From: Rhodobacter sp.
Lineage (GTDB): Bacteria > Pseudomonadota > Alphaproteobacteria > Rhodobacterales > Rhodobacteraceae
DNA: 64,000 bases
Assembly: GCA_020250175.1 (NCBI GenBank)
Contig: JADCEN010000028.1
Coordinates: 1-64,000 of the forward strand
Direction of reading: 5' to 3'
The position numbers were made by a program, and so were the translations under genes. The notes under the pieces are model-generated. The model did not search any database. It saw only the letters and a program-made list of their open reading frames with translations, and was not told where the DNA came from. Positions 2,673 to 60,579 of this stretch are shown piece by piece; positions within the stretch are counted from its first letter, which is position 1; every line of letters begins with the position of its first letter.

Positions 2673-3815
2673 ATGTCAATGTCCCGCCGCAAGACGCTGG
2701 CCTTGATCGGGGGCGGCGTCATCCTTGCCGCCACTGCCGGCCTTGGATACATCGCCTCCCGCCAGCCGCGCACCGCCCACCTGCCCTGGTCTGCTGCCGG
2801 GCAGGGCGAAGATGCCCGCATCCGCGCGCTCAGCTATGCGCTGCTGGCACCCAATCCGCACAACATTCAACCGTGGCTTGTTGACCTGTCACAGCCGGAC
2901 ACGGTGACGCTGTTTGTCGATACGAACAAGCTCTTGCCCCATACCGATCCCTACAACCGCCAGATCACCATCGGACTGGGCTGTTTTCTGGAGTTGATGC
3001 GGATGGCCGCAAGCCATGACGGCCAACGGGTGACAATCACGCCGTTCCCCGAGGGGTTCGATGACCGCGCGCTGGATGCCCGTCCGGTGGCCCGCGCGGT
3101 TTTCGAAGCTGATCCTTCTGTGGTTCCCGACCCGCTGTTTGCCTACGCACTTGACCGCCGGTCCAACAAAGAGCCGTTCGACACCGCCCGCCCGCTGCCT
3201 GCGGACATTCTGGCACAGCTCGATGTTGCCGTTTCAACGCAGTTTGGCGGCACAATCGATGCGCAGGAGGTGGCCGACTGGCGCGCCCTCACGCGCGAGG
3301 CGCTGCTGATCGAGATCGAGACACCGATCACCTTCAAGGAATCGGTGGACCTGTTCCGCATCGGCCGCAACGAGGTGGACGCCAATCCCGACGGCATCGA
3401 TTTTTCGGGCCCGATGTTCGAAGTGATGGGGGCCACGGGCCTGTTCAGCCGCGAAGCGGCGCTTGACACGACATCCCAGGCCTACAAGGCCGGAATTGAT
3501 GCGGTGCTTGCGAATGCCGACACGGCAATGGGGCATGTCTGGCTGGTCAGCCAGGGCAACAGCCGCCCCGATCAGCTTGCAACCGGGGCCGACTGGCTGC
3601 GGGTGAACCTGGCGGCAACCGCCGCCGGAGTGGCCTTTCATCCGCTGAGCCAGGCGCTTCAGGAATATCCGGAAATGGCCGGGCTTTTCGGGCAGGTGCA
3701 TGCAAAGCTTGCGCCGGACGGCGGGACAGTTCAGATGTTGGCCCGCATCGGCTTTGGCCCCGTCGTGGACAACAGCCCGCGCTGGCCGCTTGAGGCGAAA
3801 ATCGTGAATGCCTGA
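2673..3815 (+). CDS. Tat-exported nitroreductase-family (Acg-like) protein
   Basis: FMN-dependent nitroreductase-fold protein of 380 residues related to the Acg group. The N-terminus carries a twin-arginine pattern (SRRKTLALIGGG, about residues 3-15) followed by a hydrophobic stretch, so it is probably exported folded or anchored in the membrane. PNPHNIQPW near residue 68 and the RRSNKEPFDT segment near 172 fit the flavin-binding core of this family. An in-frame TTG lies 18 bases upstream, but the ATG used here has CAGGAG six bases before it and places the RR pair correctly. The last eight bases overlap the MarR gene, so the two are one transcript. The physiological substrate is unknown. Confidence 0.8.
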   Translation: MSMSRRKTLALIGGGVILAATAGLGYIASRQPRTAHLPWSAAGQGEDARIRALSYALLAPNPHNIQPWLVDLSQPDTVTLFVDTNKLLPHTDPYNRQITIGLGCFLELMRMAASHDGQRVTITPFPEGFDDRALDARPVARAVFEADPSVVPDPLFAYALDRRSNKEPFDTARPLPADILAQLDVAVSTQFGGTIDAQEVADWRALTREALLIEIETPITFKESVDLFRIGRNEVDANPDGIDFSGPMFEVMGATGLFSREAALDTTSQAYKAGIDAVLANADTAMGHVWLVSQGNSRPDQLATGADWLRVNLAATAAGVAFHPLSQALQEYPEMAGLFGQVHAKLAPDGGTVQMLARIGFGPVVDNSPRWPLEAKIVNA

Positions 3816-7326: not shown

Positions 7327-7548
7327 TGCCTCATGCCTTGGGTCCGTGGGTTATCCCACTGCTTTTGTGCCATGCATCATGACGATTCGGCGCGAAAACT
7401 TCAATAGGTCCAGTGATTTGGCCCTCAGTTGGCGGAATTCCGCCATGGATTGTGTGCGGCCCCGGGCGGCCCTACCAGATCACGGGGGCGGGGTGGCCCT
7501 GCGCGACCCCGGCCCAGCACGCTTGACCCCCCGGCAATTCCTGCTCAT

Positions 7549-9357
<1,809 letters not shown>

Positions 9358-9381
9358 CGCCCCTCGCGCTACCCTCACGCC

Positions 9382-9561
9382 ATGAACACCGCAGACCCCG
9401 CCCCGATCATCCCCGAAACCGAACTTCGCCTCGCCGAGGCGAGGCTTGCGGCTTTTGACCGTGACGGCCTCGGCCACACGCTCGACGCCTTGCGCGAATG
9501 GTCCGCCGCCCGTGCGGCTGACCCCGCCACCCCATGTCCGCCCCCTACACCCTTGCGCTAA
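9382..9561 (+). CDS. Putative antitoxin of a ParE-type TA pair (copy 1)
   Basis: A 59-residue, mostly acidic protein (MNTADPAPIIPETELRLAEA...) whose last 28 bases overlap the start of a ParE/RelE-fold toxin gene. Small size, overlap and order (antitoxin first) fit a type II module; I recognise no DNA-binding fold, so its class is open. A near-identical second copy (172 of 180 bases by hand count) lies at 11321-11500. It begins 24 bases after the lepA stop. Confidence 0.65.
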   Translation: MNTADPAPIIPETELRLAEARLAAFDRDGLGHTLDALREWSAARAADPATPCPPPTPLR

Positions 9562-9845
9562 CGCCGGGTGCGCTGGCCGACCTCGACCGCCTCGACCAGT
9601 TCCTGCGCCAAAGGAACCCCTGCGCCGCCGACCGCATGCTGACGGCGATCATCAATGCCCTCACCCGCCTCACCTCCCACCCCCTCTCCGGCCGCCCCCT
9701 CCCCGCCTCCCCCCTGCGCGCCCTGATTGTGCGCTTCGGCAAAGGCGGTTATGTCTGCCTCTATGAGGTGAGGGATCATATGGTGCTCGTCGCCCGCGTG
9801 TTTCACGCGCGGGAGGACCGGAGCGGGGGAGGCGACCTGACATGA
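9534..9845 (+). CDS. ParE/RelE-superfamily toxin
   Basis: A 103-residue protein with the ParE layout: YTLALTPGALADLDRLDQFL (first strand and helix), a middle LTRLTSHPLSGRPLP segment, and the C-terminal strands LIVRFGKGGYVCLYEV and MVLVARVFHARED ending in the HxRE-like motif. ParE toxins usually poison gyrase; RelE relatives cut mRNA; the sequence does not decide which. It overlaps its antitoxin gene by 28 bases, and its TGA overlaps the ATG of the lepA-like micro-ORF (ATGA). Confidence 0.82.
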   Translation: MSAPYTLALTPGALADLDRLDQFLRQRNPCAADRMLTAIINALTRLTSHPLSGRPLPASPLRALIVRFGKGGYVCLYEVRDHMVLVARVFHAREDRSGGGDLT

Positions 9846-9952
9846 GTATGCGTCTTCTGGCAGGAGAGAATGTCGGCAAGAAGATGAGCCAGTTCGGCAG
9901 GGTGGAAATCCCGCAGCAGGCGTTTATGAATGCGTTGAAGATAGATGGGTGA
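9842..9952 (+). pseudogene. Micro-ORF carrying a copy of the LepA C-terminus
   Basis: Thirty-six codons (MSMRLLAGENVGKKMSQFGR...). The last 23 sense codons align without gaps to the end of lepA (60 of 69 bases identical: 9881-9949 against 9286-9354), in frame and up to the stop codon. The ATG overlaps the toxin stop and its TGA overlaps the GTG start of the next gene. It could be a remnant of a second lepA brought in by recombination, or a functional translational-coupling leader. I call it a pseudogene fragment of lepA because only the 3' end is present. Confidence 0.75.
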
Positions 9953-10857
9953 GGGATGTGACATTTGATTCTGATGAGTATCTCAAGGAAGAGCGCCTGC
10001 GGGAACGTCGGAATTCCAATGAATTATTGTGGGAGAACATCGAGGAAAGCCGTCGGTGGAGAATTTCCAAAAGGACTGAAGACAAGACTGACGCGGACAA
10101 GATCAGCATTCAATTTCACCACTACCATCCCGCTACGGCCCAATTCTACATTGCCTTTTCTGGAACAATCCAAGGAATTGCAAATGATTATATTCGCAGC
10201 ATACTCTTATATGGTGCCGCGCGCCGTGCAAGCTCAATTTTTCGTTCAATAACAAAACTACCAAGAGTCGCTCCACTCGGAAGGGAATCGCCGCTTTCCC
10301 AAGAAGAAATGACAGAGGTGAACGACTGTCTGCTGCTTCTTTATGTTCACTATATCGGGGTAATCGACGCATTTTCCATCGCATACACGCGAGTTGTACC
10401 GTCGCTAGAGCGGTGCAAAGAACGATACGCCGACTTGCTGACAGAGAAGTTTCGGTCGAAGATAGGCAGCTCAGAATTGGAGAAAATCTTTACACAAAAT
10501 GACGCGTGGCTTTTCAGGGTTAAAGACAAGTTGCTGAACCGGTTTGTCCATCGTGTCCCCCCCTACGTCCCACCCTCTGTGTTCAGGCCAGCCCACAAGG
10601 AGGAATTTGACCGACTTTCCGAGGAAGGCTCCAGAGCATTGGCCAAGCGAGATATGAATCTTTATGGTGAGATAGAGGAAGAAAAGGAGCGACTGGGCGA
10701 GTTCTTTCCATGGATATGTTTCATAGATGACAATGAGTTTATGCCATTTCATAGTACTGTTCTGGATGATTTGTTTCGGTTTCAAGTGCTGGCTCTGGAT
10801 TTGCTGGAAGAAATCTTGCCACGATGCACTGTTTCTGCCGTTCCCTCGGTAAAGTAG
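9949..10857 (+). CDS. AT-rich orphan protein of unknown function
   Basis: A 302-residue soluble protein, largely helical and charged, with no signal peptide or membrane segment. Base composition differs sharply from the surroundings: hand count of 10141-10200 gives 22 G+C of 60, and codon use is relaxed (ATA, TTA, AGA are common). The GTG start overlaps the preceding micro-ORF stop; a second in-frame GTG is three codons on. The segments LLLLYVHYIGVIDAFSIAY and LLNRFVHRVPPYVPP vaguely recall HEPN-type helical domains, but the catalytic R-x4-6-H pattern is not present, so this is only a hint. It looks horizontally acquired cargo, possibly defence-related because it sits beside a TA module. Confidence 0.7.
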   Translation: MRDVTFDSDEYLKEERLRERRNSNELLWENIEESRRWRISKRTEDKTDADKISIQFHHYHPATAQFYIAFSGTIQGIANDYIRSILLYGAARRASSIFRSITKLPRVAPLGRESPLSQEEMTEVNDCLLLLYVHYIGVIDAFSIAYTRVVPSLERCKERYADLLTEKFRSKIGSSELEKIFTQNDAWLFRVKDKLLNRFVHRVPPYVPPSVFRPAHKEEFDRLSEEGSRALAKRDMNLYGEIEEEKERLGEFFPWICFIDDNEFMPFHSTVLDDLFRFQVLALDLLEEILPRCTVSAVPSVK

Positions 10858-10904: not shown

Positions 10905-11220
10905 CCTGATTTGACCCCAGTCAAATCAGGCCGCGCCCGACCGCGCCCCATCGGGCGGGCGCGACTGCGCCCTTCCGGCGGTCTGGCGCGGCCTGAACCG
11001 GGCCGCAGCGCCAGCGGAGGGCCCCTTGCCTGCGTGCTTGCGCACTTCGGCAACGGCCCGGCGGTGCTTCCACTGGAAGCCCCGCTGATCGTGCCGGGGC
11101 GCCTTATTTCGGCAGGCTGCGTGCCAATGTGCGCCTTGGGTGCTGGCGCGGCAACGCGCCTGCCGGGGGCAGGCAGGCGCGGGCGTCGGGGCAGTGCCCC
11201 GACTTGACGCGGGTCAAATC
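10905..11220. repeat. Palindrome-rich repeat, copy 1
   Basis: Starts with a perfect hairpin at 10905-10930 (11-bp arms CCTGATTTGAC, 4-base loop) and ends with GGGTCAAATC at 11211-11220, which is the inverse of GATTTGACCC in that first hairpin, so the block has short terminal inverted repeats. Inside are GGCGCGGCAACGCGCC and a hairpin at 11185-11203 (GTCGGGGC arms). The 23 bases at 11142-11164 and the 3' end recur at 14087-14109 and 14199-14234 inside the glycerol operon. No gene is evident between 10858 and 11320. Confidence 0.7.
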
Positions 11221-11320
11221 CGTCAAGAAACAAAGTGTTGCGGCGAACACTGCGTAAGGGGCACGCCAACCGAAGCCCTGCTTCGGAACCCCATCCCGCC
11301 CCGCGCGCTACCCTTCCGGT

Positions 11321-11500
11321 ATGAACACCTGCGACCCCGCCCCGATCATCTCCGAAACCGAACTTCGCCTCGCCGAGGCGAGGCTTGCGGCTTTTGACCG
11401 TGACGGCCTCGGCCACACGCTCGACGCCTTGCACGAATGGTCCGCCGCCCGTGCGGCTGACCCCGCCGCCCCATGCCCGCCCCCTACACCCTTGCGCTGA
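11321..11500 (+). CDS. Putative antitoxin (copy 2, without a toxin)
   Basis: Second copy of the 59-residue antitoxin gene, intact and differing at eight of 180 bases by hand count from copy 1. Its partner toxin is broken after 13 codons, so this is an orphan antitoxin that could still neutralise the toxin of copy 1. The sequence just upstream (CGCGCTACCCT) is also shared with copy 1, so a short piece of the promoter/leader was duplicated too. Confidence 0.6.
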   Translation: MNTCDPAPIISETELRLAEARLAAFDRDGLGHTLDALHEWSAARAADPAAPCPPPTPLR

Positions 11501-11589
11501 CGCCGGGTGCGCGGCCTCCTACACCAACTGTTGGGACACGATCAACGGGCAACTGGTCAACGGAATTGGCCGGAGCGTGTGGGAAATAG
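11473..11589 (+). pseudogene. Truncated ParE toxin remnant
   Basis: The first 13 codons (MPAPYTLALTPGA) match the intact toxin at 9534, then similarity stops abruptly near 11513 and an unrelated 25-codon tail follows to a TAG. All catalytic and gyrase/ribosome-contacting parts of ParE are missing. The break point marks one edge of the duplicated block. The roughly 120 bases after it, up to the glycerol operon terminator, contain nothing I recognise. Confidence 0.75.
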
Positions 11590-13924: not shown

Positions 13925-14234
13925 CTGCAGGCCCGGTTTCCGAGACCGCTTGCTTCGGGGCCGCGGGCCGAAAGAAAACGCTGCGGGGCAGCGTTTTCCG
14001 GCCCGTTGCCCAAAAGGCCGGAGGCCGTTGGGCAAGGGGTGTCGGTACGGGCGCTGAACGTTGGAAATCGGGGCGCGCCTGACTGGGCTGGCGCGGCAAC
14101 GCGCCTGCCACGGAGTGATGAGCGATCAGAAATCGTCCGGTGGACGATTTCCGCGAAAAACGCCGCGCCCGTGGCGCGGCTGGGTGGCAGGCGCGACCGT
14201 CGGGGCAGTGCCCCGACTTGACGCGGGTCAAATC
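13925..14234. repeat. Palindrome-rich repeat, copy 2, inside the glp operon
   Basis: The 382-base gap between glpQ and the DUF2160 gene is filled by strong hairpins: 13975-13997 (AAAACGCTGC arms), 14130-14150 (AAATCGTCC arms) and 14199-14217 (GTCGGGGC arms). The segments 14087-14109 and 14199-14234 match copy 1 at 11142-11164 and 11185-11220. On the minus strand these hairpins would sit in the operon mRNA and could stabilise the upstream part or reduce read-through to glpV. Confidence 0.7.
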
Positions 14235-14285
14235 GGGTAAGAGAACCGACCAACTGCACAAGCTCTTGCCGGAGCGAGGCCATTC

Positions 14286-54825: not shown

Positions 54826-56757
54826 ATGAGCGGCCCGCGTGACACGATGGAACTGCAGGAACCGGCGATCCTGGCGCATTATCCGGGGGCGCTGGGCCTG
54901 CTGACCGGCTTTGACCATGCGCCCCGGCTGGGCCGGGCCACGGCGGCAGCGCCGCAGGCGGAACGCTCTGCCGGGATCGGCACGCGGCGCGCGCTGCGGT
55001 CCACCGTGCCGGGGCTGGCGGCCCGGCCGGCAGCAAGGCCGGGCGGGGTGCGGCTGATCGAGCGGGTCGAAAGCTATGGCGATGGTCTGGTGTCGCCGCT
55101 GCAGGCCGCTGTGCTGGGTGCCCTGCGCCGCGCCCTGGCGGTGGCGCTGGCCATGGGCGATGCCTTTGCCGCGCAGACCGGGCTGGTGGAGTTGAAGAAG
55201 GCCAATCTGGAAGCCCGCCTTCCCGAGGCGCGGCGGGCCGAGTTCACCGAACTGCTGGCGGCCGAGGCGCTGGTGGTGCTGCATGTTTTCGGCAATGCCA
55301 CGGCCTTTCTGCTGGCCCCGCATCTGGGCGAGACGACGGTCGAAGTGGGCGGCGTTGACGAGGTGCTGACCGACAACGCCATTCTGGGCCTGCAGGGCGT
55401 GCTGTGGGAGCTGGATCAGGACATTGCCACGCTGGCCACCGACGAGGCGCTGCTGGTGGCGGTGGTGGCGGGCTTTGCCGAACAGCTGATGGAAAAGGTG
55501 GCGCTGCGGGCCGGAACGGCGGCGCGGGCGGGGGCCTTTTCGGCAGGGTCCTGGCGGGTGGAGGCGGACCAGTTGACGCTGGCCGGGTTCACGCCGGCAC
55601 GCAAGGCCAAGGGCAGCACCCTGGCCATGACCTTCAAGAAACCCGAAGAGGTCATCGGCAACCATATCGCCAAACATCAGGCGATGCGGCTGGCCAGGAT
55701 GCTGATGGCCTATGATTTTGACCGCAGGCTGAACCCCTTTGCCGAAATCGGCGGCTTCATCTTTACCTTCATGGGCGATGGCAAGCCGGGCACGGGCAAG
55801 ACCACGCTGATCCAGATGATGGCGGGCCTGCTGGACGGCTATTGCCGGGTGGCAGGCTATCCCTTTCGCTATCAGAACTTCAGCATCGACCAGATCGACA
55901 GCTATCAGGGCAAGTCGGGGCAGAATGCCAAGGCCTTCATCCAGAACATGCTGGACCCGGCCGTCATTGGTTTTGGCACTATCGACGACATCGATCAGGT
56001 GGCGGGCAAGCGCGGCGACCGCCAGTCCAGCGCCGGTCAGCAGGAGGTAACGGCGGTGTTCATGGAGGCCTTTGCCGGGGCCAATACGGTGGTGCGGGGC
56101 AACTGCACCTTTGGCATGTTCTCCAACTTTCCCGAGAATGTGGACGACGCCCTGCGCCAGCGCGCAGGCGCACGGTTTCTGGTGGACGGCCCGCAAAGCC
56201 GCGAGGATTACATCGATATCCTGACCCTGCTGCTGGGCAAGAACCATGCCATTCCGCTGGGCGAGCATCAGCTTTATGCGGCGCAGGAGATCCGCCGCGC
56301 CGTGGCGGAAAGCTTTGAATCGCATGGTCGGCCCAAGGAAGACGGGCTGATCCAGGTCTGGGATCAGGTTGCGGCACAGCTGGGGCCGCTGGATACGCTG
56401 GCAAAGATCGGCACCTATCTGAAGGCGATCCAGCAGGCGGATGCGCGGTTCACCGGGCGCGCGATCAAGAACATCACCGATGCCGTCAAGGTGCGGGCGA
56501 TGGATTTCGAACTGCCGGACGCCTGGATGGCGGAGCCGGAGCGGTTCCTGTTCAAATCCTATGACGAAAAGTCGGCGATGATCCGCGACCTGATGCAGCC
56601 GATCACGGTGGAGATGGTGGTGCAGGAGATCAACCGCTACGCCGACAGCGAATTCCGCTATGCCGACAAATCGGATGAGGTGGCGATAGAGGCACTGGTG
56701 CGCGACATGGGCCGGATGGATGAGGCGAAGCGGCGGTATGTGGGGGGGAAGGGGTGA
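54826..56757 (+). CDS. AAA+ ATPase of the uncharacterised operon
   Basis: A 643-residue protein. Residues 1-300 are a helical N-terminal domain unlike any I know. The AAA+ module follows: Walker A GKPGTGKTT at about 318-326, Walker B GFGTIDDIDQ at about 382-391, a sensor-1-like Asn in NCTFGMFSNF at about 425-434, and an arginine-finger region DDALRQRAGARF at about 440-451 that resembles MoxR/RavA-type proteins. A C-terminal helical lid follows. It should be a ring-forming ATPase acting on a protein or complex. No von Willebrand A protein, the usual MoxR partner, is encoded in the operon. The next gene overlaps by four bases (GTGA). Confidence 0.85.
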   Translation: MSGPRDTMELQEPAILAHYPGALGLLTGFDHAPRLGRATAAAPQAERSAGIGTRRALRSTVPGLAARPAARPGGVRLIERVESYGDGLVSPLQAAVLGALRRALAVALAMGDAFAAQTGLVELKKANLEARLPEARRAEFTELLAAEALVVLHVFGNATAFLLAPHLGETTVEVGGVDEVLTDNAILGLQGVLWELDQDIATLATDEALLVAVVAGFAEQLMEKVALRAGTAARAGAFSAGSWRVEADQLTLAGFTPARKAKGSTLAMTFKKPEEVIGNHIAKHQAMRLARMLMAYDFDRRLNPFAEIGGFIFTFMGDGKPGTGKTTLIQMMAGLLDGYCRVAGYPFRYQNFSIDQIDSYQGKSGQNAKAFIQNMLDPAVIGFGTIDDIDQVAGKRGDRQSSAGQQEVTAVFMEAFAGANTVVRGNCTFGMFSNFPENVDDALRQRAGARFLVDGPQSREDYIDILTLLLGKNHAIPLGEHQLYAAQEIRRAVAESFESHGRPKEDGLIQVWDQVAAQLGPLDTLAKIGTYLKAIQQADARFTGRAIKNITDAVKVRAMDFELPDAWMAEPERFLFKSYDEKSAMIRDLMQPITVEMVVQEINRYADSEFRYADKSDEVAIEALVRDMGRMDEAKRRYVGGKG

Positions 56758-57044: not shown

Positions 57045-57140
57045 GGGCCGCTCCTGGCCTTCGTCTAGTTGGTGAGGGCGCAGGAGTTGAACCGGCGAAT
57101 CGGGTTGAAGACTGTGGATGGGAAAAGGGGGGATGGGGTG

Positions 57141-57932
57141 ATGGAACTTCGGGTTCTAAGGCGAATGCTTTCGGCCCTTCTTCGTTCGACGCGATCACTG
57201 GACATTGTTGTTATGGCGTTCAGCACACTACTTCTCGTTGTCTTGTGGGTAGTTTTCGATGGTAAGATGACGCCCGAAGGCCGACATAACCATGTATCTT
57301 TTTTCCCAATCAGTTCAGAAGAAGGTCAGAACTATTCAGTCGCAATTCTAGGACTTGAGTACCTTGGTAATGAAAGGGGAATGCTCGAAGGAGTTCTTCT
57401 TCGACCTGATAACTGTGATCCGATGTACCCTCCAAAAATTGGAGTGGCGCTTGAAAGTGATCTGATAATTGTGCAGGGGCTCAATGCTCTACTTGATAGG
57501 CGTGAGAACGAAATTCTCGTTGTGACGGGGAAAGACTGCGAGGATGTTTTCTTTGAGGTGCAAGGCGATTTCTTCGATGAGTACTCAGACAGGGTTGATC
57601 TATCTTTGTCATTGAACTTGGAGCAGAATTCATTAGATCAACGCACTACTATTTGGGGAATAGAGCATCTTGAAGGCCTGAATTGGCTCTCGTCAGGCTA
57701 TACCAAAACACCAAAGATTGACAATGATGGAAATCCTAGATTTGAATGGACTGGAAGTTATCTTGATTTAAGGTTTCAAGGTGCAAACCCTGCTGGTGCA
57801 ATAGACGCAAATCGATCAACATTCATTCTAGGCATAGCTCTCGGAACTCTTGCTTCGCTGTTTTCTGGGGCAACTATTTCTATGTTGTCCAGACTGAAAT
57901 GGTTCCGGGATCAGAAGGGTGAAAGCGAATGA
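57141..57932 (+). CDS. AT-rich two-helix membrane protein, probable acquired cargo
   Basis: A 263-residue protein with an N-terminal membrane helix (about 20-40, LDIVVMAFSTLLLVVLWVVF), a large polar domain and a C-terminal membrane helix (about 229-252, STFILGIALGTLASLFSG). The polar domain has paired cysteines (DNCDPMYPP, GKDCED). Composition is foreign: 24 G+C of 60 by hand count at 57301-57360. No family recognised. The ATG follows a GGGGATGGGG site; longer starts exist upstream. Its TGA overlaps the ATG of a copy of the next operon gene's 5' end (ATGA). Confidence 0.65.
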   Translation: MELRVLRRMLSALLRSTRSLDIVVMAFSTLLLVVLWVVFDGKMTPEGRHNHVSFFPISSEEGQNYSVAILGLEYLGNERGMLEGVLLRPDNCDPMYPPKIGVALESDLIIVQGLNALLDRRENEILVVTGKDCEDVFFEVQGDFFDEYSDRVDLSLSLNLEQNSLDQRTTIWGIEHLEGLNWLSSGYTKTPKIDNDGNPRFEWTGSYLDLRFQGANPAGAIDANRSTFILGIALGTLASLFSGATISMLSRLKWFRDQKGESE

Positions 57933-58146
57933 AACCCCTCATCCAACACGGCCTCATGTCCCGGAACCAGATCGAGGTCTCCTCTCCCGCCCCCCACCCC
58001 CATCCCCTCCCCACGAGGGGGAGGGGAGGCGCTTCTTCGGTTGACGTGGGCACTGGTGGCGGGCGGTTGGGCGCTCCCTCCCCCTTGTGGGGAGGGATGG
58101 GGTGGGGGGCCTTGGGCAAGCGCACTCGACATGAAGGGTATGCCCC
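57929..58146 (+). repeat. Copy 1 of the 58946 gene 5' end plus MITE-like palindrome
   Basis: The first 21 codons (MKPLIQHGLMSRNQIEVSSP and one more) align without gaps to the start of the gene at 58946 (49 of 63 bases by hand count). At the 22nd codon the sequence becomes a palindromic element (about 57989-58111) whose outer arms, CCCCCCACCCCCATCCC on the left and GGGATGGGGTGGGGGG on the right, are inverted repeats around a core of about 50 bases. The unit is repeated directly next to it. Confidence 0.8.
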
Positions 58147-58349
58147 ATGAAACCCCTCATCCAAGGCGGCGAGATATCCCGGAACCTGATCGAGGTTTCC
58201 TCTCCGGCCCCCCACCCCCATCCCCTCCCCACGAGGGGGAGGGGAGGCGCTTTTTCGGTTGGCGTGGGCGCTTGGTGGCGGGCGTCGGGTGCCTCCCTCC
58301 CCCCGTGGGGAGGGTTGGGGTGGGGGGCCTTGGGCATGGGGCGGGACGG
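58147..58349 (+). repeat. Copy 2 of the 58946 gene 5' end plus MITE-like palindrome
   Basis: Second unit in tandem with the first: 21 codons starting MKPLIQGGEISRNLIEVSSP, differing from copy 1 at nine of 63 bases, followed by the same palindromic element (about 58207-58329) with a core GGCGCTTTTTCGGTTGGCGT. It ends at the start of the DUF559 gene. Confidence 0.8.
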
Positions 58350-58949
58350 ATGACGGGTATCCACCCCATCACCCGGCAACGCGCGCGAAAGCTGCGGGCG
58401 GAGATGACGCCGCAGGAGCGGCGGGTCTGGGTGAAGCTGCGGGAGTTGAACCGGATGCTTGGGTTGCATTTCCGGCGGCAAGCGCCCATCGGGCCATTCA
58501 TCGTGGATTTCGCCGATCTGGGGCGGCGGTTGGTGATTGAGGTGGATGGGGGCGGGCATGGTGGGGAGCGGGACGCTGCACGGGATGACTGGTTAAGCAC
58601 GCAGGGGTTTCAGGTGTTGCGGTTCTGGAACCCACAGATTTCGGGGAATATCGAGGGCGTGATGCAGATGATCTTCGATGCGGTTGGCGGTGAGTCCCTG
58701 GCAGACGCCCCCCCACCCCATCCCTCCCCCACGCGGGGGGAGGGAGGCGAAAAGCTCCGTTCTGATGCGATGGCTGTCGGCGGTGTGCCCCCCGCCCCCA
58801 ACCCCTCCCCGCGAGGGGGCGGGGAGGCTCGCGGTGCAGTCGTTGCGCAAAACGTCGGGTGTTCCGCGCCCCCCTCCCCCCGCGTGGGGGAGGGATGGGG
58901 TGGGGGGGCGTCCGCCAAAGGCGTGGCACCAAAAGGAATCGCCTCATGA
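58350..58949 (+). CDS. DUF559 endonuclease-like protein with repeat-encoded tail
   Basis: A 199-residue frame. The first 120 residues are a DUF559 (Vsr/MutH-like PD-(D/E)XK) domain: RQRARKLRAEMTPQERRVW, LGLHFRRQAPIGPFIVDFAD, LVIEVDGGGHGG and FQVLRFWNPQI. The IVDFAD and IEVDG pair fits the nuclease core, with Asp and Glu in the expected places. From about residue 122 the frame runs through a third palindromic element, giving a Pro/Gly-rich tail (PPPHPSPTRGEGG) that is probably not functional. Its TGA overlaps the ATG of the next gene. Such DUF559 genes are often mobile, and I infer it was carried in by the flanking repeats. Confidence 0.75.
   Translation: MTGIHPITRQRARKLRAEMTPQERRVWVKLRELNRMLGLHFRRQAPIGPFIVDFADLGRRLVIEVDGGGHGGERDAARDDWLSTQGFQVLRFWNPQISGNIEGVMQMIFDAVGGESLADAPPPHPSPTRGEGGEKLRSDAMAVGGVPPAPNPSPRGGGEARGAVVAQNVGCSAPPSPRVGEGWGGGASAKGVAPKGIAS
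58707..58910. repeat. MITE-like palindromic element, copy 3
   Basis: Arms CCCCCCCACCCCATCCCTCC and the inverse at the other end, with an inner hairpin (CCCCTCCCCGCGAGGGG) at about 58800. It is related to the elements of the two tandem units. It lies inside the DUF559 frame and ends 35 bases before the start of the next gene. Confidence 0.7.
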
Positions 58950-60316
58950 AACGCCTGATCGAAAAAGGCCTGATGTTCGGCAACCTCATCGAGGTGTCCT
59001 CGCCCGCTTTGGTGGAACGCTACAACCGTGCGCTGAAGCATCTGACGGGGAAGGAAACAGTGCAGACCGATTTCCACATCGACATCTCGGGTTACAGCCC
59101 CGAGATCGGCGATGAATTCGGCGATGACCTGTATCTGAACCCCAACGGCTGCAACCGGCAGTTCATCCTGCTGACCACGGCGCAGAAAACCGCCCCGCTG
59201 CTGAACGTCAAATTCTCCACCTCGCGCGGCATCCTGAAACAGTTCTATGAAGCCAACGATGCGCAGCTGTTCGCGCTGACCGCGCGGGATGCGGTGGCGG
59301 GCGAGTTGCAGAATTCAGTCTATGAGGTGACGACCCCGGCCAAGCTGTTCGACATCCGCCGGATCACGGTCGAGGCCGATACGATCGGCGGCCATGTCAA
59401 GGATGCAACCGCGCTGGCGGCCCTGATCGACCAGTTCCGGCGCGAACCCGAAGGCTGGCGCGACGAGGCCCTGATTGCCCGGATGATCGCCCTGGCAACC
59501 AGGACGGGCGACGTGACCCGCGTGCCCGTGGCCCTGCCGGCGATGACCTTTGAGCAGGGCAATTTCTGGACATCGCATTTCGGCGGCATCTATGTGTTCC
59601 GCGACCTGCACCGCCCGGCGGCGATTTCGGCGGTATCGGCGGAAAGCCTCGGCGTGCTGCCGGTGCCCGCCACCGACCTGCGCCAGCGCAATGTGATTGC
59701 CGACTGGATGGAGCGCAACCAGCTGGTGGAGCCCATCGTGCAGGCGCGGGGCATGGATGCGGCGGCCGTGCTGCGCCAGAAGATGGATTTCATTCTGGTC
59801 GATGCGGCAGATGCGCTGAACCTTGACCTTGGGCAGGCAACGCGGGCCGATCTGCGCAAGATCGCGCAGCGCCTGGGGTCTGCCCTGCCGCCGGAGTTTC
59901 AGGGGCTGGCCGCGCTTTTGCGCTGGGTCGAGGGCGGGGGCGACTGGCCCAGGATCAGCTCGGAACATCCCGCCTATTTCTACACGCTGCGCGCGCGGGC
60001 GCATGCCGACCGCGACCTGGTGAACATGCTGCTGGCCGAACTGGCCCCGCTGGACGTGCGCCAGCTGTTCATCACCCATAAAGAGCTGTTCTATGCCCTG
60101 TACGCCACCTGGTCGGACCGCAAGCGCAGCTATGTGGCGGATTTCCTGGCAAGAGAGTATCAGGTGGACAAGGCAGGTGCCCGCGCCGCATTGTTCGGGC
60201 CGGAACCGGGAATGGAAGACAGCCAGCGCCCCGATCCGCGCCCGGCCCCGCAGCCTGCGCGCAGCCTGGTTGATCTGGTTGGCCCCTGGGGCGCTGTGCG
60301 GAAAGGCAGACGATGA
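58946..60316 (+). CDS. Uncharacterised 456-aa protein of the AAA+ operon
   Basis: A soluble protein starting MKRLIEKGLMFGNLIEVSSP. The first 200 residues have beta-rich segments (ETVQTDFHIDISGYSPEIGD, NRQFILLTTAQKTAPLLNV); the C-terminal half is helical, with repeat-like helices (RADLRKIAQRLGSALP, LVNMLLAELAPLDVRQLF), and a disordered Pro-rich tail. No catalytic motif is clear. I recognise it only as a family conserved in Rhodobacterales and without a function. The ATG overlaps the DUF559 stop; the 60313 gene overlaps its end. Two broken copies of its 5' end lie upstream. Confidence 0.78.
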   Translation: MKRLIEKGLMFGNLIEVSSPALVERYNRALKHLTGKETVQTDFHIDISGYSPEIGDEFGDDLYLNPNGCNRQFILLTTAQKTAPLLNVKFSTSRGILKQFYEANDAQLFALTARDAVAGELQNSVYEVTTPAKLFDIRRITVEADTIGGHVKDATALAALIDQFRREPEGWRDEALIARMIALATRTGDVTRVPVALPAMTFEQGNFWTSHFGGIYVFRDLHRPAAISAVSAESLGVLPVPATDLRQRNVIADWMERNQLVEPIVQARGMDAAAVLRQKMDFILVDAADALNLDLGQATRADLRKIAQRLGSALPPEFQGLAALLRWVEGGGDWPRISSEHPAYFYTLRARAHADRDLVNMLLAELAPLDVRQLFITHKELFYALYATWSDRKRSYVADFLAREYQVDKAGARAALFGPEPGMEDSQRPDPRPAPQPARSLVDLVGPWGAVRKGRR

Positions 60317-60579
60317 TCGCAATCCTTACCTTTGCCGTGATCGGGTTTCTGGTGCTGACGGTGATCTACCTGCTGGTGTCGGTCTATTCCCGTTCTGTCC
60401 GGCGCGAGAAGCTGGAAAAAGAGTTCGACGGCGGCGATTTTGCGGGGGACCGGGATGCTTTTGTGGAAAAGGGCCTGCAGGCCTATCAGCACAGCCTGCG
60501 CCGCTGGCTGATCCTTCTTGTCTATGTGATTCCCGCAGCCGCCGTGGCTGTCACGATCTATCTGGTGAACTACAGTTAG
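60313..60579 (+). CDS. Small two-helix membrane protein of the AAA+ operon
   Basis: An 88-residue protein with membrane helices at about 3-25 (AILTFAVIGFLVLTVIYLLV) and 64-85 (WLILLVYVIPAAAVAVTIYL) and a charged 38-residue loop between them. It overlaps the upstream gene by four bases (ATGA) and is followed after 10 bases by the DUF1523 gene. It is likely a membrane component of the same complex; no family recognised. Confidence 0.7.
   Translation: MIAILTFAVIGFLVLTVIYLLVSVYSRSVRREKLEKEFDGGDFAGDRDAFVEKGLQAYQHSLRRWLILLVYVIPAAAVAVTIYLVNYS

Follow-up and report, generated by a model that had tools for sequence, protein, structure and literature searches.

We found that in a 64,000-nt stretch of Rhodobacter sp. 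DNA (contig JADCEN010000028.1, positions 1 to 64,000; hereafter the window) the beginning of a DUF6638 gene recurs twice upstream of that gene, within DNA inserted between it and the preceding AAA ATPase gene of the same operon. The first 63 nt of the gene, which starts at 58946, were matched in frame and without gaps at 57929 (49/63) and at 58147 (46/63). This confirms the observation made in an initial annotation of the sequence, whose interpretation was borne out in part. In our judgement the copies are fairly probably leftovers of repeated foreign-gene capture at this single junction in a conserved operon, with recombination with donor DNA as the route. Horizontal capture of cargo that leaves 5′ fragments behind fits the observations better than insertion of a palindrome with target duplication.

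The likeness of the copies to the gene ended at about nt 63, where they pass, after codon 21 as noted before, into a GC-rich palindrome; the two copies were alike across 190 nt. With a position matrix built from 94 DUF6638 starts, they scored 55.7 and 36.7, and the best minus-strand score in any locus was -25.4. Both were also recovered by nhmmer (E values in Table 1), and reversed inserts yielded one match only, with E = 0.98. Because the matrix and nhmmer scores were far outside the controls, the gene-start copies are not due to chance.

The initial annotation had described two copies, each fused to a palindrome. Both are indeed fused, but they are repeats of one 218-bp tandem unit and not two independent fusions. 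The unit consists of the 63-nt gene start, the palindrome and a spacer of ∼35 nt. It was present once in the sister genome G005 (a Rhodobacter sp. metagenome-assembled genome, JADCDI010000035), twice in the window and ∼8.6 times in G003 (JADCEL010000062); by nhmmer, DUF6638 5′ fragments in the window genus numbered 1, 2 and 8 per genome. Neighbouring units of G003 matched at 89%, which makes collapse or expansion of identical reads unlikely. Ahead of the array, the three sister species carried three different cargo open reading frames (ORFs). No coding constraint on the units was seen.

The AAA-ATPase/DUF6638 junction was fetched across the family, with each genus represented by one genome (our loci L037-L131 and L156-L195), and 127 junctions were counted. 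In L044, L114, L123 and L131 the junction was bare (-4 to 0 nt): the DUF6638 start overlapped or directly followed the AAA stop. Inserts of 150 bp or more filled 108 of the 127 junctions. Coupling of an ORF to the AAA stop was seen in 87 and to the start of DUF6638 in 86, and the insert was often a single AT-rich ORF with coupling on either side. The DUF6638/next-gene junction was at least 60 bp in 0/26 cases, and the following junction in 0/30. The longest ORFs of the inserts formed 59 clusters, and about half had a GC content below 0.56. Matches to putAbiC (two), AbiJ_NTD4 or Mrr_N were obtained for four of ten tested cargo ORFs; there were few PADLOC matches, and one cargo ORF matched a histidine-kinase-type ATPase weakly. 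Between named congeners (Marivita, Pseudorhodobacter) the cargo was unlike. This junction is a hotspot at which single genes are captured into the operon while the start-stop overlaps are kept. Like the defence hotspots between conserved genes, for example those of phages and satellites (PMC9122126), it has conserved border genes, cargo that varies across relatives and defence-like families (putAbiC, AbiJ_NTD4, Mrr_N). It differs from them in that it lies within an operon and has start-stop overlaps at either border, that its cargo is usually a single small ORF, and that no mobility gene was noticed. Genes, defence-like ones among them, are swapped singly at one junction of a conserved operon with these overlaps intact. 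DUF6638 was single-copy in nearly all genomes. In the sister genome G004 (L039, G004:C7; L316) just the last ∼90 codons of DUF6638 were left and the AAA gene was not nearby, and DUF6638 was wholly missing from three further congeners.

Gene-start fragments recurred in other genera. An nhmmer search of the junction inserts, with the initial 78 nt of DUF6638 as query, revealed 5′ fragments in the window genus, L159 (62 nt), L096 (72 nt), L164 (28 nt) and, in part, L122 (nt 15-53); the following 78-nt DUF6638 blocks and the last 156 nt of the AAA gene gave nothing significant in the inserts by the same method. A decayed 5′ fragment was read by eye in L053, whose cargo was homologous to that of G003. 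No viral contigs with the gene-start pattern were found. In L159 and L164 the fragment was followed by a module of palindrome and DUF559 gene. The 72-nt fragment of L096 was fused to other cargo without a triplex palindrome, and DUF559/palindrome modules stood at the junction without a 5′ fragment in L046, L048, L052 and L167; fragment and palindrome are therefore separable. Of the case that the initial annotation had named as refuting its reading, one half holds: extra 5′ copies free of the palindrome exist, though as fragments and not as parts of paralogous genes.

The consensus of the 11 copies in the window genus matched the gene start of L046 at 57/63 positions and those of L159 and L042 at 55/63, compared with 49-50/63 for the genus's own genes. 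The own gene matched or beat L046 in 42 of 5000 codon bootstraps and ranked 6-27 of 134 for likeness to the genus copies. Judged by these identities, the window-genus copies are closer to the genes of other genera than to the resident gene. The differences between the consensus and the own gene fell mostly on third codon positions (3, 2 and 8 at positions one to three), whereas those among the copies (15, 24 and 16) were not third-biased (Fisher P 0.05). This contrast fits a source in a working gene of another lineage, with the copies drifting afterwards. The bodies of the resident genes gave 86% identity to L046/L159 for DUF559 and 78% to L159 for AAA. The copies of L096 and L159 were not clearly closer to other genera than to their own gene. 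Swaps of this kind would leave datable scars, the 5′ gene fragments, that point to the donor lineage.

In the explanation that we favour, foreign genes would be captured, lost and replaced at the AAA-ATPase/DUF6638 junction inside the operon. The incoming DNA would derive from the same junction of another genus, its cargo arriving with the first ∼60-70 nt of the donor DUF6638. The right-hand exchange would occur within DNA already at the junction and miss the resident DUF6638, leaving the donor 5′ end stranded as a fragment. In the window genus the fragment would abut the outer edge of a resident module of triplex palindrome and DUF559, and the 218-bp unit would then have been multiplied in tandem; unequal recombination of palindromes that are almost identical is the probable cause. 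By eye, the unit spacer between palindrome and ATG resembled the one that, in L159, separates the last palindrome from the ATG of DUF6638, which fits an exchange between palindromes before and after DUF559. Ribosomes would pass from the cargo through the units and DUF559 to DUF6638 by termination-reinitiation at the ATGA overlaps, and inserts breaking translational coupling would be selected against.

Several points weigh against this explanation. The foreign affinity of the copies was based on 63 nt. In L046, which comes closest to the consensus of the copies, DUF559 is present and the 5′ copy absent. Neither an incoming molecule nor an intermediate of recombination was seen. Random exchange should give many fragment lengths, but most fragments end near nt 60-72, which would equally follow from a site-specific process. 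Since stops are rare in every frame of a GC-rich palindrome, the fact that the chained frames are open argues only weakly for selection.

The palindromes are, by the arrangement of their blocks, inverted pairs of the known G/C-rich class II intrastrand triplex motif. With the motif consensus taken from PMC4666352, the order C block, loop, complementary G block, loop, mirrored G block was found in the window palindromes, and the window gave 8 motif matches, all at 58.0-58.9 kb, against 1 in the reversed control. The Escherichia coli motif, the only one for which triplex formation in vitro has been shown, is intergenic, had no mobility gene found near it and was linked to local genomic instability (Holder et al. 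2015, PMC4666352). The C block, G block, G block build and the inverted pairing are common to both, but here the motifs lie inside coupled operon frames, fused to a gene fragment in tandem units, and, here and widely, a DUF559 gene is adjacent. For the unit 1 palindrome a hairpin of -88.9 kcal/mol (z -5.65) was calculated. The palindromes had been called similar to miniature inverted-repeat transposable elements. Terminal inverted repeats are present (arms of 34 nt in unit 1, 82% complementary), but the palindromes are not dispersed: there were 13 strict motif matches genome-wide, 10 of which adjoin the two DUF559 genes of the genome. The flanks of the unit 1 palindrome, CTCCCGCC and TTGGGCAA, were judged by eye not to be repeats of each other, and no transposase was noticed in the inserts read.

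The association with DUF559 was examined in loci L196, L200-L206 and L223-L252, together with E. coli L222. A motif lay within 500 bp of DUF559 in 30 of 37 loci, compared with 10 of 299 control windows, many from the same genomes. A stricter motif was found in 17/30 DUF559 loci, 2/299 controls and 0/30 outer flanks of the same loci, at a median distance of 67 bp from DUF559. Among 200 genomes, the motif occurred in 39 of 47 with DUF559 and in 24 of 153 without, the related genomes in these counts not being independent. In E. coli K-12, motif no. 9 of PMC4666352 lies between fabI and ycjD, 167 bp from ycjD, which is a DUF559 gene. Both the locus counts and the genome counts show a strong association of DUF559 genes with triplex motifs across Pseudomonadota, which is not proof of partnership. 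It is reminiscent of repetitive extragenic palindromic (REP) sequences and REP doublets forming hairpins (REPINs) with their REP-associated tyrosine transposases (RAYTs), which are likewise palindromic, often in inverted pairs, and tied to one protein family by locus and genome (PMC2817692, PMC3116915): here too the repeat adjoins its candidate partner gene and the two co-occur across genomes. However, DUF559 has a nuclease-like fold and is not a tyrosine transposase, the repeat is a triplex motif and not a REP, and the DUF559-repeat pair is putative. We regard it as possible, though somewhat doubtful, that DUF559 is a dedicated, RAYT/REP-like partner of triplex repeats that spreads in Pseudomonadota, and that it here entered the capture junction and drove the amplification of the gene start; eight motif-rich genomes without a strong DUF559 match limit the case for such a partnership. 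No paper on DUF559 with palindromes or repeats, or reporting its pairing with triplex motifs, was found in a search that most subscription journals lay outside, and a search of the literature on operon insertion and gene-start fragments gave nothing relevant. The DUF559 link makes the long-unexplained origin of triplex-forming repeats directly testable.

Other explanations of the copies were considered. The triplex-palindrome/DUF559 module might be a mobile element that inserts at codon 21 with a long target duplication, the left copies decaying afterwards. In both the window genus and L159 the module does separate the copy from the gene, and the joint follows codon 21; the L159 copy resembles its own gene (55/63) almost as closely as it does any other, and DUF559 is tied to triplex palindromes in many genomes. 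Nevertheless, by the own-gene ranks given above the resident gene is not the source of the genus copies, modules without a copy occur at the same junction (L046, L048, L052, L167), copies occur without the triplex palindrome (L096, L053), and no enzyme known for duplications of 60-70 nt is present. We consider the mobile-element reading unlikely. Palindrome-driven target duplication was not our first choice on account of the palindrome-free copies, the copy-free modules and the foreign-like copies, and the initial reading, in which the palindrome caused the duplication and may show how such elements choose their sites, is not supported in view of the same three observations. We consider somewhat less probable still a site-specific integration, in which cargo circles would use the DUF6638 5′ end as attachment site, the gene being restored and the old 5′ end left on the left side. 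The cargo is compact, the fragment is always the 5′ end, and the fragments of the window genus, L159 and L096 stop near nt 60-72. But no integrase was recognised among the inserts examined, fragment length varies (28, 39, 62 and 72 nt, and 188 for nuoE in the same genome), and most inserts leave no fragment. An SXT-type integrative and conjugative element integrates into the 5′ end of prfC and restores the gene. As there, a 5′ fragment is left outside here and the gene retains a working start; unlike there, no recombinase was found among the families searched in the window inserts, the fragment ends vary, and the foreign look is in the fragment, not in the gene.

The fragments could also be functional translation-restart leaders that would allow reinitiation through the palindromes and avoid polarity on DUF6638. 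The ATGA overlaps at all unit starts in the window and at most in G003, as well as the strong hairpin, would agree with such a role. Since the variation among copies shows no codon-position constraint, two G003 units are off by one base and most DUF559 modules at the junction have no fragment, this is quite improbable as the explanation, but it may operate alongside the capture of foreign genes, not instead of it. A chance resemblance, or the remnant of a true DUF6638 paralogue, has nothing beyond the shortness of the copies in its favour and is hardly credible: the scores were far beyond the controls, no paralogue body follows any copy, and there is one DUF6638 gene per genome nearly everywhere.

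The features of the locus are collected in Table 1. The initial annotation had noted that the ATGA overlap is kept at 57929 and 58946; we observed it at 58147 too. ATGA overlaps link the cargo ORF to unit 1, unit 2, DUF559 and DUF6638 in succession, and the downstream gene at 60313-60579 is also chained to DUF6638 in this way. Most G003 units keep the ATGA chaining; two are one base shorter, and their frame runs into a later unit or DUF559 with an overlap at its end anyway. Each copy had been described as preceded by a gene or repeat unit, but the cargo ORF and the DUF559 gene are themselves part of the same insert stack. No family was found for the cargo ORF in Pfam, NCBIfam or PADLOC, and unrelated ORFs stand in its place in G003 and G005. 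The older DUF559/triplex relic ahead of the cargo ORF indicates that the junction was filled in layers. The small membrane protein ORF resembled an ORF of L046 by eye, and its family was the biggest ORF cluster in the junctions of other genera; it is probably an old occupant of the junction. The motif-bearing arms within DUF559 are 51 nt each and 96% complementary.

Table 1. Features of the AAA-ATPase/DUF6638 junction in the window
Feature	Coordinates	Strand	Remarks
AAA ATPase gene, bordering the variable junction on the left	54826..56757	+	PF00004, E 4e-12; conserved neighbour of DUF6638, ~127 loci
Small membrane protein ORF, 96 aa	56754..57044	+	GTGA overlap with AAA stop
Relic of earlier DUF559 gene and triplex repeat	57045..57140	+	76% identity of 57071-57107 with 58430-58466, within DUF559
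AT-rich cargo ORF, 263 aa, GC 0.46	57141..57932	+	Stop overlaps copy 1 start (ATGA)
Copy 1 of DUF6638 5′ end, 21 codons	57929..57991	+	49/63; nhmmer E 1.2e-8
Unit 1 as 73-codon ORF	57929..58150	+	Terminates in ATGA over copy 2 start
Palindrome of unit 1	57989..58111	.	Inverted class II intrastrand triplex motifs at 58028(-) and 58075(+)
Copy 2 of DUF6638 5′ end	58147..58209	+	46/63 to gene, 54/63 to copy 1; nhmmer E 3.2e-7
Unit 2 as 68-codon ORF	58147..58353	+	Terminates in ATGA over DUF559 start
Palindrome of unit 2	58207..58329	.	Inverted triplex motifs at 58246(-) and 58294(+)
DUF559 (PF04480) nuclease-like gene	58350..58949	+	E 1.5e-31; stop overlaps DUF6638 start (ATGA)
Further triplex motifs, 3′ part of DUF559 ORF	58699..58917	.	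Arms 58699-58749 and 58867-58917; also 58787-58828
DUF6638 gene, 456 aa	58946..60316	+	PF20343, E 1.1e-212; source of the repeated 5′ end

The comparison drawn earlier with lepA, as a case of foreign DNA inserted at a gene border with the translational junction preserved, was borne out, and similar events were observed at nuoD/nuoE and at the lepA 3′ end. At nuoD/nuoE of the same genome (L219, G000:C27:49500-56000), a 400-nt repeat at 2463-2862 and 3202-3601 (81%) contains the 3′ end of a DUF2442-like ORF together with 188 nt from the start of nuoE, and flanks a small cargo with an ORF judged by eye to be DUF4160-like; G003 has the repeat once. At the 3′ end of the gene at 7429-9357, the lepA of the initial annotation, the 68-nt gene end is repeated (9283-9350 and 9878-9945), as are 221 nt downstream of it (9358-9578 and 11297-11516), and both repeats surround an inserted ORF at 9949-10857. 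Another GC-rich repeat family was found at 10906-11228 and 14087-14242 (AATCAGGCCGCGCC..., CAGGCGCGGGCGTCGGGGCAGTGCCCCGACTTGACGCGG), near other inserts, and a sequence similar to these repeats comes after the decayed fragment in L053.

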